Assembly (NCBI GenBank): GCA_963920575.1
Contig: OY986966.1
Coordinates: forward strand, 13,843,297 to 13,907,296
DNA: 64,000 nt
Source of the DNA: Narthecium ossifragum
Lineage: Eukaryota; Streptophyta; Magnoliopsida; Dioscoreales; Nartheciaceae
Reading direction: 5' to 3'
In this document: positions 2,510 through 64,000 of the stretch, piece after piece
How the letters are laid out: each line of letters begins with the position of its first letter
Position numbering within the stretch: the first letter of the stretch is position 1
Program-made: the position numbers and the translations under genes
The notes under the pieces: generated by a model
The model's database searches: none
What the model was told of the DNA's origin: nothing
What the model saw: only the letters and a program-made list of their open reading frames with translations

Positions 2510-4928
2510 TGTGAGGACCTGTCCCTCTACCCCTGTGGCTCGTTGTGGACCGCAAGGGCAATTTGGTAAATTACGCCTTGTTGGTTTGTTTCACACCTGC
2601 GTGTGCACACACTGACCTTGTATGTGTTAGTGTTTGTTTCACACCCGCGAAAGCTTGCCTATGGGCAGCTGACGGTCCTTGAGCGATCGATCGCTCGTAG
2701 GAGCGATCGATCGGACTCGTGAGCGAGTCGGTGGGTTTTGACCCGCTCGGATCAATCTGACTTGGTGTTGGATCGATCCAGCCTGTGTCGGATCGATCCG
2801 ACTTGGTGTGGGATCGATCCGGGGCGCGAGCGATCGATCGCTTCTTGGAGCGATCGATCGGAATCGCGTCGGTGGCTTTTTCTGCTTCGCGAGGACGGCC
2901 TCCATTGGTCGTCGCTCTCTCCTGTCAGAAGGGGAGGACTTTCCCTCCCCTCCTTCACCTTTCTCCCCTCTTTCCCGGCTGTCCCCTCCCCCTTTTCTTC
3001 CTTTTTCTCCTTCCCCTCCTTCCTTCTTCTTCTTCTTCTTCTTTCTCCTCACCCGAAAGCTCTGTTTCTTCTCTTCTCCCGCCGGCAAGCTTCTTCTCTT
3101 CCTTTCTCCCTCCTCCGACCATCATTTTGGGTGTTCTAAGGCTCGTTGGATCCGTGGCAATGAGAGGAAGGCTCCTGGTGTGGTTTGGAGGCTTGTTGGT
3201 GACTGGTTGCGAGGGATCAGCCGAGGAAAGCGTTTTTCGGTAGGTTCTTCTACCTACTGTGTTCTTTAATGGGTTTCTTTAGATCTAGCCGTTGAATCTT
3301 GTTGGTCTTTGTCTTGTTGGATTCCTCATGCCTAGTAAAATTTCTGATATGAGTTTCATGATCTTTGGTTGAGATCTTAGTAGGTTTTATGCATGATTCA
3401 GCTCGGATTCTCTGTTTTCTGCTGTTCTTGAAGAATAGCCGGCTTGCGGCGCGTTTTTCGGCCGGTACGTACATGCTCTTGGGTTGTGATGAGCATAAAA
3501 GTTGTAGATTGTTGAATCTATTCTCTAACCCAACTGATTTCATAATTTTCTGATTTTCCTACGATTTGTTATGAATTGTTTACTGGAGGGCTGCATTGCA
3601 GCAATTAATTAGTAAGTTAGTTTGATTAACGGTTTTGATTAGTGTTTTCCCGTTAATCCAACCGTTGGATGATGATGGATTTTTGTATGTACACCTACTG
3701 ATGGTTAAGTTGGATCTTGAAGCCGACGTCGTTTGGATGTCGGATCGACGGGATCAATTAGCCTCTAGTAGAGAACTTTTGGGTGTTTGAATATAATATT
3801 ATATTTCGGAATATAATATTATATTGTTTACTGTTCATCATCGTTTTCGGGGTTGCTTCCCGTTGCAGGAGTCCGAGGTTGACGGTCGCGGTACCGTCGT
3901 AATACCGGGACCCGCTGCGGATCGGGTGGCAGCGGTCGGTAGTACCGTTGACTTTTATGATGCCTTATCATAGTGTTGCATGCCTATCTCGTGTTTGTGT
4001 ATGTCATAGCATGCATTGTTGATTTGTGCATTAGTTGCATTGGTTAGGGCGTAGGTGATCCTTGGGTCGTCGTCCCGAGGCTGGAAGCTCGGACTTAGCC
4101 CTAGGACCGGGGTTGGGTAGTTTGGACCAGATTTGAATTGTAGTGTCCAGTCAAACTTGATGATAGACTTAGATGACTGGTGCACTTATTGCTTGATGAT
4201 TGTAGAGGTCGTGTCGGCCTCGAGCCAGACGTTGTGGGTGCAACCGGTGTCCGGTTCTTTGTCTCTTGGGTGGTAGAGGTGCCTACTCAACGGTGTGGTT
4301 GGCCACCTAGTAGAGTCGGGTATCTGCTAGTGAGACGGCAGTGTGGTTTCCTGCCTCGCTGAGGGCAACCAAGTATGTGACCAGTTCGGCTGGAAGACCA
4401 TGACTGAGGCCTCCCTTCAGGGACACCGGCGAAGGGTTATGGGACCCTTGCTGCACACCCAAGTCTTGCTTGAGTGCGACACTGTTGCGTTTCCCTCTTC
4501 CTTCTGTGTGTCGTAGTGTAGATCCCTACTGAGCTTAGTGCTCACACCTACCCGGGCTGGTTTTGCAGGTGCAGGCGTCAGTTCTTCCTCTGTGGCCCCT
4601 ACCGGGCAGTTGGTCGGCAGTGCGGCGGCGCCTGGTGGACTTTGAGAGGTGGCGATATTTACTGCTTTTACCTTTGGTTAGTTAGTCTCCTACGGGAGTG
4701 ATGTTGTATTCGAATCTTTTCCTCTCCGAGGATATGTATATTAAACACTTTGAATTTTAAATCTGTGGTTCGATGTTGTTAAATTAATGTCTTTAAATTG
4801 GGGGTTTTTGATGAACTGTTAGGAAGACCAATAGGTTAGAGGGAACCCTCGCCGTCTTTTTCCGCGTTTTGTAGGTTCCGGTTCGCGTCGCCCGGCCCGG
4901 TTGGGCTTTCGTGAGTCGGGGCGCGACA
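2510..4928 (+). repeat. Solo LTR (copy A) of the Tekay/Del-type family
   Basis: The LTR starts TGTGAGGACC and ends GGGGCGCGACA, so it has TG...CA ends and is 2419 bp long. The same unit is found at 5869-8124 (+), 14506-16838 (-), 30722-33132 (-) and in part at 8398-9572, 29215-30292 and 56398-59125. Flanks GGAGG (2505-2509) and GGAAG (4929-4933) match at 4 of 5 bases, as expected for an aged target-site duplication. No PBS or PPT adjoins it, so it is a solo LTR inserted in the antisense ORF of the Tat element. A pyrimidine-rich (CTT)n stretch lies near 2975-3050. ORFs read inside it are Ser/Pro/Leu-rich and not conserved between copies. Confidence 0.85.
2685..2859. promoter_or_regulatory. Phased GATCGATC palindrome array in LTR A
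   Basis: GATCGATC cores start at 2685, 2705, 2771, 2791, 2812, 2832 and 2852. The last five are spaced 20, 21, 20 and 20 bp, about two helical turns each. The bases next to each core are also self-complementary but differ: GAGC/GCTC at 2681-2696 (16-bp perfect palindrome), TG/CA at 2769-2780, CG/CG at 2789-2800 and AGC/GCT at 2829-2842. The array lies in the 5' part of the LTR, where U3 is expected. A role as a protein-binding array is an inference. Confidence 0.6.
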
Positions 4929-5704
4929 GGAAGCGTCGACCAGCAGACATTAGGCTACCTCCCAATAGCCACTAAGACTAAGGTTCCAGAGAATCAATCA
5001 ATCCTCGAATGATAAAAATTTAATTCCTCTCATCCAATTTGGATTTCATAATCATTCTCCTAAACTCCTGATCGATCACGGGGACCACGTCCTCCCATAG
5101 TCACGATCGCAAGTTCCTAGACCCGACCTGACCTAGACTCATCTAGATCCGAGTTACTCGAGACCCTCGGATCGGTGATTTCCTCAATCACCCTGACCTA
5201 TTTTTGTCATATACACACATACCAATTCAACATTACATATTGCAATATCACAACAAGTAAGCATAGAATACATGCATGACATGTTAACCATAAAGGAGTA
5301 GGATAACATCAATTTATAACCTGTACATGATCATAGCTTGCGACATCACAGACAGCCAGGTATTTCATCAATGAATTGACCAAACAAATATTTATACATA
5401 AATCAAGTATTATGTATGCATCATAGGTAGTTCAACTACATACCATTAAGCAGTCCAACACAACATAGCCACAACTTACAACATCATAGGCAGCCATAAC
5501 TCTCATCAATAAATTGGTTAACAAGAATCATAATTAACTCAAGCATCCTGTGTAGTCGCCTACATCAACCAGTAGAGAAAATATGCTACCACAACTCCAA
5601 ATCCACCCTATACAAGCAACTACACCTCAACCTCCTCTGTTAACATCAACAAGACATCCTATTCAATTATAGGACTTCCTCAACTGAAGCCAATAGATCC
5701 AAGA
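4929..5704. other. Unassigned repeat-like DNA between LTRs
   Basis: The first 30 bases or so continue the interrupted antisense ORF. The rest has no convincing frame. Two loosely similar segments occur near 5336-5390 and 5460-5520 (both read like 'cgacatcacagacagcc' / 'aacatcataggcagcc'). The style resembles a decayed LTR in reverse orientation, but I could not match it to another part of the window. Confidence 0.4.
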
Positions 5705-5868
5705 TGTGAGGACCTTTCCCTCTACTCCTGGGTCGACCGTCTCGGTCGGGCGCATGGCTCATTTGCTTGTTTCGCGTCGAGTGTGCGATCCGATGGATCA
5801 CATTGTTTTTTTGTGCCGCAAGGGCAACTTGATAAATTGCACATTGTCGGTTTGTTTCACACCCGCGT
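5705..5868 (+). repeat. 5' fragment of an E-type LTR
   Basis: It starts TGTGAGGACC and then diverges from the main Tekay-type LTR. It shares the rest with the LTR at 37410-39076 (GGTCG...CGATC, then 'ccgcaagggcaact', 'tttgtttcacacccgcg'). It is cut after 164 bp by LTR B, so LTR B inserted into this related older LTR. Confidence 0.65.
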
Positions 5869-63449: not shown

Positions 63450-63452
63450 AGT

Positions 63453-63536
63453 TGTCACGCCCCGACCAGCGTAGGCCCAACCGGGCCGGGCGACGCGAAG
63501 CGGAACCTAACCTACTGCGGAAATTTTGATGAGTGC
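63453..63536 (-). repeat. 5' LTR end of element H
   Basis: TGTCACGCCCCGACC followed by 'gcgtaggcccaaccgggccgg', as in LTR F. It is cut after 84 bp by the Athila LTR. Confidence 0.9.
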
Positions 63537-64000
63537 ATGAAAGTGCACTCTGAACGACCTTATAACCATCTCAATTGCTAGATTATTATCCTTAATCAAC
63601 ATCTCTACTACTATTTTTATATCTATATGTTGCTTCACATAGTTGTTTGGAAAATGCAGGAAATTTGAGCTAAAAAAAGCTGAAAAGAGTATATGGATCA
63701 ACTTCAAAAATTAAACTGTACCTGCTCATGAAGAACCAGATGATGTGCCATATATGGTTGGAAAGCTCTTGAAGTCTAGATTCTGGAGAATTTCACGATT
63801 CGTTATTCCGAGTTTCCTAGAGGAAGTTACTGCGATTTTAGTACCAATGGCGCAGTCTGAATGGTAGAACAAAAAATACGCTGGAAGTCCGATCGATCGG
63901 ACTACGCAGAAACGTGACAGAACATATATTTTTCAGCTATACACAGTCCGATCGATCCCTCCATCCATCCTACGGAGTCCGATCGATCCGACACCCATAG
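63537..64000 (+). repeat. Athila LTR, start only
   Basis: It starts TGATGAGTGCATGAAAGTGCACTC, as at 11723, and runs off the window. Boxes: GTCCGATCGATCGGAC at 63887-63902 (16-bp perfect palindrome), GATCGATC at 63950 and 63981. It inserted in the 5' LTR of element H. Confidence 0.88.

Follow-up and report, generated by a model that had tools for sequence, protein, structure and literature searches.

Introduction

Palindromic repeats are known from the long terminal repeats (LTRs) of plant retrotransposons. Here, we compare them with two related palindromes, the box GATCGATC and the 20-mer GGTCGAT-N6-ATCGACC, that recur in the Ty1 and Ty3 LTRs of a 64,000-nucleotide stretch of Narthecium ossifragum DNA (C4:13843297-13907296 in a 379.4-Mb plant genome; hereafter the window). 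For the published systems, we rely on excerpts of the papers cited here and below. As excerpted, Bousios et al. 2010 describe a palindromic repeated motif (RM) that forms clusters upstream of TATA in Sirevirus LTRs, is called Sirevirus-specific with a CGG-CCG core, Tnd-1 excepted, and reads CGGTCGACCG in Vitis and ACAATCGATTGT in Tnd-1 (PMC2829016). The LTR palindromes of maize Sireviruses are reported to be fast-varying and to be small-RNA hotspots (Bousios et al. 2016, as cited in PMC5311732 and PMC10760457). A parallel outside the retrotransposons is provided by the VANC target arrays of VANDAL elements, where VANC6 motifs occur also in the unrelated AT9TSD1 (PMC5735166). The box GATCGATC itself has been reported upstream of rice sperm-expressed genes (PMC3224587) and of iron-response genes (PMC8207140), in neither excerpt tied to LTRs, while its occurrence in PMC5288721 is a library junction and was discarded. 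In the open-licence literature, as far as it was covered in excerpts, we found no title on the GATCGATC/LTR grammar described here.

Three LTR groups in the window and their likeness to known repeats

Self-comparison, LTR ends, primer-site patterns and Pfam scans, the last run on unmended reading frames, resolve the window into nested LTR retrotransposons with three LTR homology groups, T, A and S. The T group is Ty3, with LTRs that start TGTGAGGACC and end GCGCGACA. The A group is also Ty3, and one copy adjoins a pol region with an RVT_3 RNase H. The S group is Ty1, as a copia-type gag (PF14223) lies behind the LTR at 41615-42763. An initial annotation labeled the T group Tekay and the A group Athila, and we repeat these names as its labels; the S elements may be Sireviruses (SIRE, TR-GAG), judging by its label and the copia-type gag. 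In total, 20,736 bp of LTR were delimited in the window, including the following.

2510..4928, + strand: T-type LTR, begins TGTGAGGACC and finishes GCGCGACA
5869..8124, + strand: T-type LTR, primer-binding-site (PBS)-like ATCAGAGC at 8132
14506..16838, - strand: T-type LTR
30722..33132, - strand: T-type LTR with cluster c6 (32823-32920)
11810..12200, + strand: part of an A-type LTR; boxes 12063, 12085, 12165; GACAGA 12100-12105
19519..20584, - strand: A-type LTR; boxes 19846, 20043; 20-mer 19907; TATAAAT 127 bp beyond the last box
33140..34160, - strand: A-type LTR; boxes 33414, 33456, 33631; 20-mer 33517
51400..52233, - strand: A-type LTR adjoining the Ty3 pol with RVT_3 RNase H; cluster c14 51575-51865; GACAGA 51774-51779
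63529..64000, + strand: A-type LTR truncated by the window end; boxes 63891, 63950, 63981; AGTCC-type arms; GACAGA 63916-63921
35903..37121, + strand: S-type LTR, PBS-like TGGTATCAGAG at 37123; 20-mers 36193, 36266, 36518
41615..42763, + strand: S-type 5' LTR, PBS 42766; copia-type gag (PF14223) frame 42896-43681
49782..50931, + strand: S-type LTR, partner of 41615-42763 (92%); 20-mer 50266
48560..49649, - strand: S-type LTR, PBS 48559; 20-mers 49189, 49221, 49348, 49401; TATA 87 bp beyond the last box
45719..46777, - strand: S-type LTR, partner of 48560-49649 (93%); 20-mers 46381, 46529; TATA 87 bp beyond the last box

Like the Sirevirus RM, the window boxes are palindromic, have dyad symmetry and are clustered in LTRs. 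The palindrome GGTCGACC of the Vitis RM CGGTCGACCG was counted 13 times in the window, and the ATCGAT core of the Tnd-1 RM is that of GATCGATC. The CGG-CCG signature, judged from sequence contexts, is complete on both sides in 5 of the 12 LTR 20-mers and present on one side in the other 7, and it does not belong to GATCGATC. Unlike the RM as excerpted, the window boxes also occur in Ty3 LTRs, have a GATCGATC core, stand in pairs 19-23 bp apart and are accompanied by a phased second motif, GACAGA. Since the 20-mer and a larger module around it are found in Ty3 A-type LTRs, outside the Sirevirus restriction described for the RM, at most the S-type boxes count as Sirevirus RM, a kind that, by analogy, they look like. 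As in the maize Sireviruses, palindromes in the window form clusters that vary and that occupy the regulatory part of the LTR; the maize sequence is CACCGGAC-N3-GTCCGGTG and is linked to small RNAs (PMC5311732, PMC10760457). The VANC targets are similar in their dense arrays of short motifs in non-coding transposon DNA, growth by tandem repeats and variants, and differ in that VANDALs are DNA transposons, that the protein binding the arrays is known and encoded by the element, and that the motif is not a palindrome (PMC5735166). The statement in the initial annotation that no such LTR element had been described does not hold, as palindromic repeats in Sirevirus LTRs were already published (PMC2829016, as excerpted). 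New here, beyond this known kind, are the spread into Ty3, the pairing of boxes at 19-23 bp, arms that are specific to an LTR, and GACAGA at phased gaps. Beside the TCGA boxes of the S-type LTR pair there is also a 32-bp tandem array with GGATGCATCC-type palindromes (41756-41924 and 49923-50091).

The boxes are far above chance and belong to the LTRs

The window contains 56 GATCGATC boxes, compared to a mean of 1.19 and a maximum of 5 in 200 dinucleotide shuffles. Adjacent pairs at 20-24 bp number 17 and the 20-mer occurs 13 times, both with a shuffle mean of 0. The delimited LTRs hold 53 of the 56 boxes and 12 of the 13 20-mers, and shuffling these LTRs alone gave 0.51 boxes (maximum 3), 0 pairs and 0 20-mers. 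The boxes are real and far above chance, and both their frequency and their phasing exceed those of shuffled LTRs, the comparison that the initial annotation had proposed. The positions that it gave carry GATCGATC, with the exceptions of 19868 (GATCGACC) and 51638 (GAACGATC), changes for which it had allowed. Two of the boxes outside the LTRs, 8454 and 59110, are in stretches homologous to T-type LTRs, and the third, 5070, is not; the remaining 20-mer (61715) is inside a pol reading frame.

The same holds across the genome, where pattern counts are lower bounds: there are at least 33,313 GATCGATC pairs at exactly 22 bp (control, 3) and, for spacings of 9-38 bp, at least 84,390 pairs of boxes (140 in the reversed control). 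Twenty spaced 10-kb genome samples contain 77 boxes, with 55 in or within 400 bp of T-, A- or S-related LTR sequence and 18 forming four other clusters. The remaining 4 are isolated boxes elsewhere, a number close to the window's shuffle rate for such a length. Two of these four other clusters, X1 (L011) and X2 (L015), still score 30 (control 22) and 29 (control 24) against A-type clusters once the boxes are masked. As these scores exceed the controls, X1 and X2 are possibly distant relatives of the A group and not further families. The box pattern was also matched in 34 viral-contig stretches.

Boxes are paired at two helical turns and grow as tandem arrays

Box clusters of the T-type LTRs include the following.

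2685..2860, + strand: cluster c0, 7 GATCGATC in 20-21-bp runs; GAGC/GGAC arms; TATA-like site not found within 400 bp downstream
6085..6204, + strand: cluster c1, 4 GATCGATC; TATAAAT ~10 bp downstream
16513..16627, - strand: cluster c4, promoter side of LTR 14506-16838, 5 boxes; TATAAAA 23 bp downstream
15873..16141, - strand: cluster c3, second cluster of the same LTR, 6 boxes, from 342 bp downstream of c4's TATA
57703..58007, - strand: cluster c15, 10 boxes forming five 21-22-bp pairs; neighboring ~72 bp units 73% identical

When genome-wide pairs were searched at 9-38 bp, the spacing was 19-23 bp in 96 of the 100 matches listed and 9, 30, 30 and 38 bp in the remaining four; these match lists, here and below, cover only the initial 2-8 Mb of contig C1. 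The spacing varies with the arms: pairs with C..G outer bases are spaced 20 or 23 bp in 12 of 12 cases from the window and samples, and make up only 106 of the at least 33,313 pairs at 22 bp. The centers of pairs are often 60-74 bp apart, and neighboring units are 73-76% identical in two clusters (c15, with units of ~72 bp, and c14, with a repeat of 98 bp), a degree of identity that marks them as tandem duplications. With this spacing as its basis, a function at the level of DNA is well supported. When a helical period was fitted to the raw distances between boxes, the best value was 10.2 bp (R 0.42), but 12.2 bp did nearly as well (R 0.38), and we do not use this fit as proof.

GACAGA is a phased second motif

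With TCGA boxes masked in 29 clusters, GACAGA occurs 16 times against 1.9 expected, and it is present in 12 clusters from all three groups. Near the boxes of the window and samples there are 18 copies of it, whereas its 59 letter permutations average 5.7. Genome-wide, the arrangement GATCGATC-N1-30-GACAGA gives at least 14,782 combinations, nested matches being double-counted, versus 77 in the reversed control, and on the opposite side box-N1-30-TCTGTC gives at least 13,211 versus 82. The gap between GACAGA and the nearest box is 8-11 or 17-21 bp in 74 of 79 distinct spacers from the 100 matches listed, classes that were picked after viewing the data; the other five have gaps of 5 or 26-29 bp, and among the matches listed there are none at 12-16 or 22-25 bp. 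When 68 of the 79 strings are joined into same-length families, these two classes take in 25 of the 30 families formed at 60% identity and 19 of the 24 formed at 50%. For TCTGTC, 50 of the 100 matches listed, not de-duplicated, have gaps of 15-20 bp, 46 of 25-29 bp and 4 elsewhere. Gaps one helical turn apart are as needed for a protein complex on DNA. The open-licence literature yielded nothing joining GATCGATC with GACAGA. A longer shared motif around GACAGA was defined post hoc and was not used. An instance within cluster c15 is given below.

57813..57818, + strand: GACAGA, 8 bp past box 57797

Part of the clusters lie just upstream of TATA

The initial annotation had the clusters upstream of a TATA box in most LTRs, and this is true for part of the LTRs. 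Nine of the 22 oriented T/A clusters are followed by a TATA-like site no more than 100 bp past their last box, with a background of 0.081 per 100 bp. Five of these nine are T clusters, where the distance is 10-25 bp, and four are A clusters, where it is 53-64 bp; in one further A cluster it is 127 bp; some A clusters were measured from a widened end in one run, and the distances given are from the other runs. It is 87 bp in three of the four S LTRs examined and 64 bp in X1. A position upstream of TATA, at 87 bp in S and at 10-127 bp in T and A where a site was found, is a further likeness to the Sirevirus RM as excerpted (PMC2829016). The claim fails for a second cluster of T-type LTRs, which begins 342 bp downstream of TATA in LTR 14506-16838 and in L001.

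Arm symmetry is mostly a property of the whole LTR

Instead of being read by a protein, the pairs might fold into hairpins or cruciforms, with an effect at the DNA or RNA level or as a source of small RNAs directed at the LTRs, a reading we consider unlikely. There are 107 perfect stems of at least 9 bp in the window and 20 samples, compared to 11-21 in five shuffles, and 27 of the 107 hold GATCGATC. The folding energy of 30-mers is also lower than that of recombined halves (z -10.5), and the palindromes of Sirevirus LTRs are reported as small-RNA hotspots in the excerpts noted above (PMC5311732, PMC10760457). The arms match each other as complements, both inside single boxes (72 of 142 at position 1, against 39.1 expected) and across pairs (global z 10.5). 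In 45 window and sample pairs, inner position 1 hardly exceeds expectation (18 against 14.3), while outer position 1 does (33 against 13.1). However, permutation within loci, which took 93 of the 96 listed pairs at 19-23 bp, accounts for 197.9 of the observed 215 (74 pairs, 20 loci; reached in 24 of 5000). Because only a small excess is left, most of the arm symmetry is an LTR-wide dialect, and we rejected pair covariation as proof of hairpins. A G:U strand bias was not found in oriented clusters, where single box changes keep pairing in 11 cases and break it in 12, and on these small numbers an RNA hairpin is not supported as the main function. The phased GACAGA, which is outside the stems, is also left unexplained by hairpins. 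As a separate observation, T-type LTRs have a recurrent AT hairpin with a 16-bp stem (AATATAATATTATATT; 3790-3825, 31834-31869 and L022:1139-1174).

A and S LTRs share a module, while T and A share little beyond the boxes

According to the initial annotation, LTRs of the different families share no other sequence. This is nearly so for T and A. All 96 of the longest exact cross-group matches of at least 13 bp contain TCGA. Between T and A, no exact match exceeds 18 bp, and the one of that length is centered on a box; with boxes masked the T-A scores are at control level (median 16 versus 17; best 24 versus 22). It does not extend to A and S, as the A-type 20-mer (19890, 33500, L018:3040) sits in a ~87-bp module that aligns almost without gaps to S-type LTRs. 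In its spacer, 16-23 of 30 bases are identical (shuffle p <=0.0007 in 18 of 18 comparisons). The 20-mer is thus common to Ty1 and Ty3 LTRs, as had been annotated, though as part of a larger shared unit.

33511..33603, + strand: ~87-bp module in an A-type LTR, homologous to S-type LTRs, antisense to its LTR
36260..36352, + strand: ~87-bp module in an S-type (Ty1) LTR, LTR sense; GACAGA 36304-36309

Judging by this alignment, the A-S module either was transferred between Ty3 and Ty1 LTRs or goes back to a remote common origin. It is antisense to the LTR in A, oriented by the TATA side and minus-strand pol frames, and sense in S, oriented by primer sites; this opposite orientation could be compatible with an orientation-free enhancer cassette. 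The module also favors passive spread, in which boxes moved between families by recombination or template switching with no shared function. We think this improbable as a general explanation, given that T and A share little beyond the boxes, and that members of one family keep the core but vary in their arms. The dialects themselves are common to T and A, with 70 of 114 T arms found among A arms (16.6 expected).

A proposed composite element read by a dimer and a partner

From these sequence patterns, we propose that the boxes are probably one half of a composite promoter or enhancer element, bound by a dimeric DNA-binding protein with a partner on GACAGA. Each palindromic box, of the GATCGATC or GGTCGAT/ATCGACC type, would be the site for a dimer. 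The boxes are paired two helical turns apart (19-23 bp), with pairs repeated every ~61-72 bp in some LTRs, and a putative second factor would sit on GACAGA between pairs, on a fixed face of the helix. We infer that a protein reads the boxes, and its most likely effect would be to turn on LTR transcription or prevent silencing. Tandem duplication would grow the arrays and keep them alike within an LTR, as in the VANC targets (PMC5735166, as excerpted), giving each LTR arms of its own. Unrelated families may retain the same core and spacing by exploiting the same protein or proteins, and one module seems to have moved between A-type Ty3 and S-type Ty1 LTRs, such that tandem duplication, convergence and some module transfer would together explain the spread. 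The initial annotation had suggested sites for a dimeric host protein; this is partly supported, and it is the best fit to the two-turn spacing, the phased second motif, the nearby TATA and the lack of G:U bias.

Several results weigh against the composite element. The match lists are from one part of one contig, and the GACAGA gap classes were chosen with the data in view. The window and samples include GACAGA gaps of 7, 12, 33 and 42 bp as well, the last two after looser boxes. CGGACG and ATCGTC are more enriched in spacers than GACAGA, but only in S and T, and CAGAGA (20) and ACAGAG (17), both overlapping GACAGAGA, match GACAGA (18) in frequency. No TATA-like site is within 100 bp of the last box in 13 of the 22 oriented T/A clusters. 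Of these, 4 belong to T-type LTRs and lie downstream of TATA, 1 is truncated where the window ends, and the rest have a TATA farther away or none recognized. Finally, the small pair-specific arm excess within loci fits hairpins too.

A host repressor or silencing factor that recognizes many LTRs, in place of an activator exploited by the elements, would also explain boxes common to unrelated families, and an arms race would account for arms that change from one relative to the next. Such a factor should favor the loss of its sites, yet copies multiply their boxes by tandem duplication, some right beside TATA, and we judge it to be a poor candidate. More tentatively, the composite element could be extended to a single trans-acting protein family, either host-encoded or a VANC-like anti-silencing protein of one element that the others hijacked, that reads core, spacing and GACAGA, with arms as dialects and many LTR retrotransposons of this genome, Ty1 and Ty3, in one regulatory network. 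If the composite element is real, unrelated retrotransposons that share a host would be seen both to arrive at one promoter grammar by convergence and to exchange it. The boxes supply an exact sequence code for finding the host or element protein that reads them, and open to testing the question of whether LTR palindromes act in transcription, through small RNAs or in both ways.

Other features of the window and samples

A 358-bp unit is tandemly duplicated with 98% matches at 25070-25793, adjoining a minus-strand Ty3 pol region. Near T-type LTR pieces, there is a 406-bp tandem repeat (92%) at 58251-58980, with a related stretch at 30366-30664. At L021:7941-9965, a long plant mobile domain (PF10536) frame is on the opposite strand, ~1.8 kb from an A-type box cluster.

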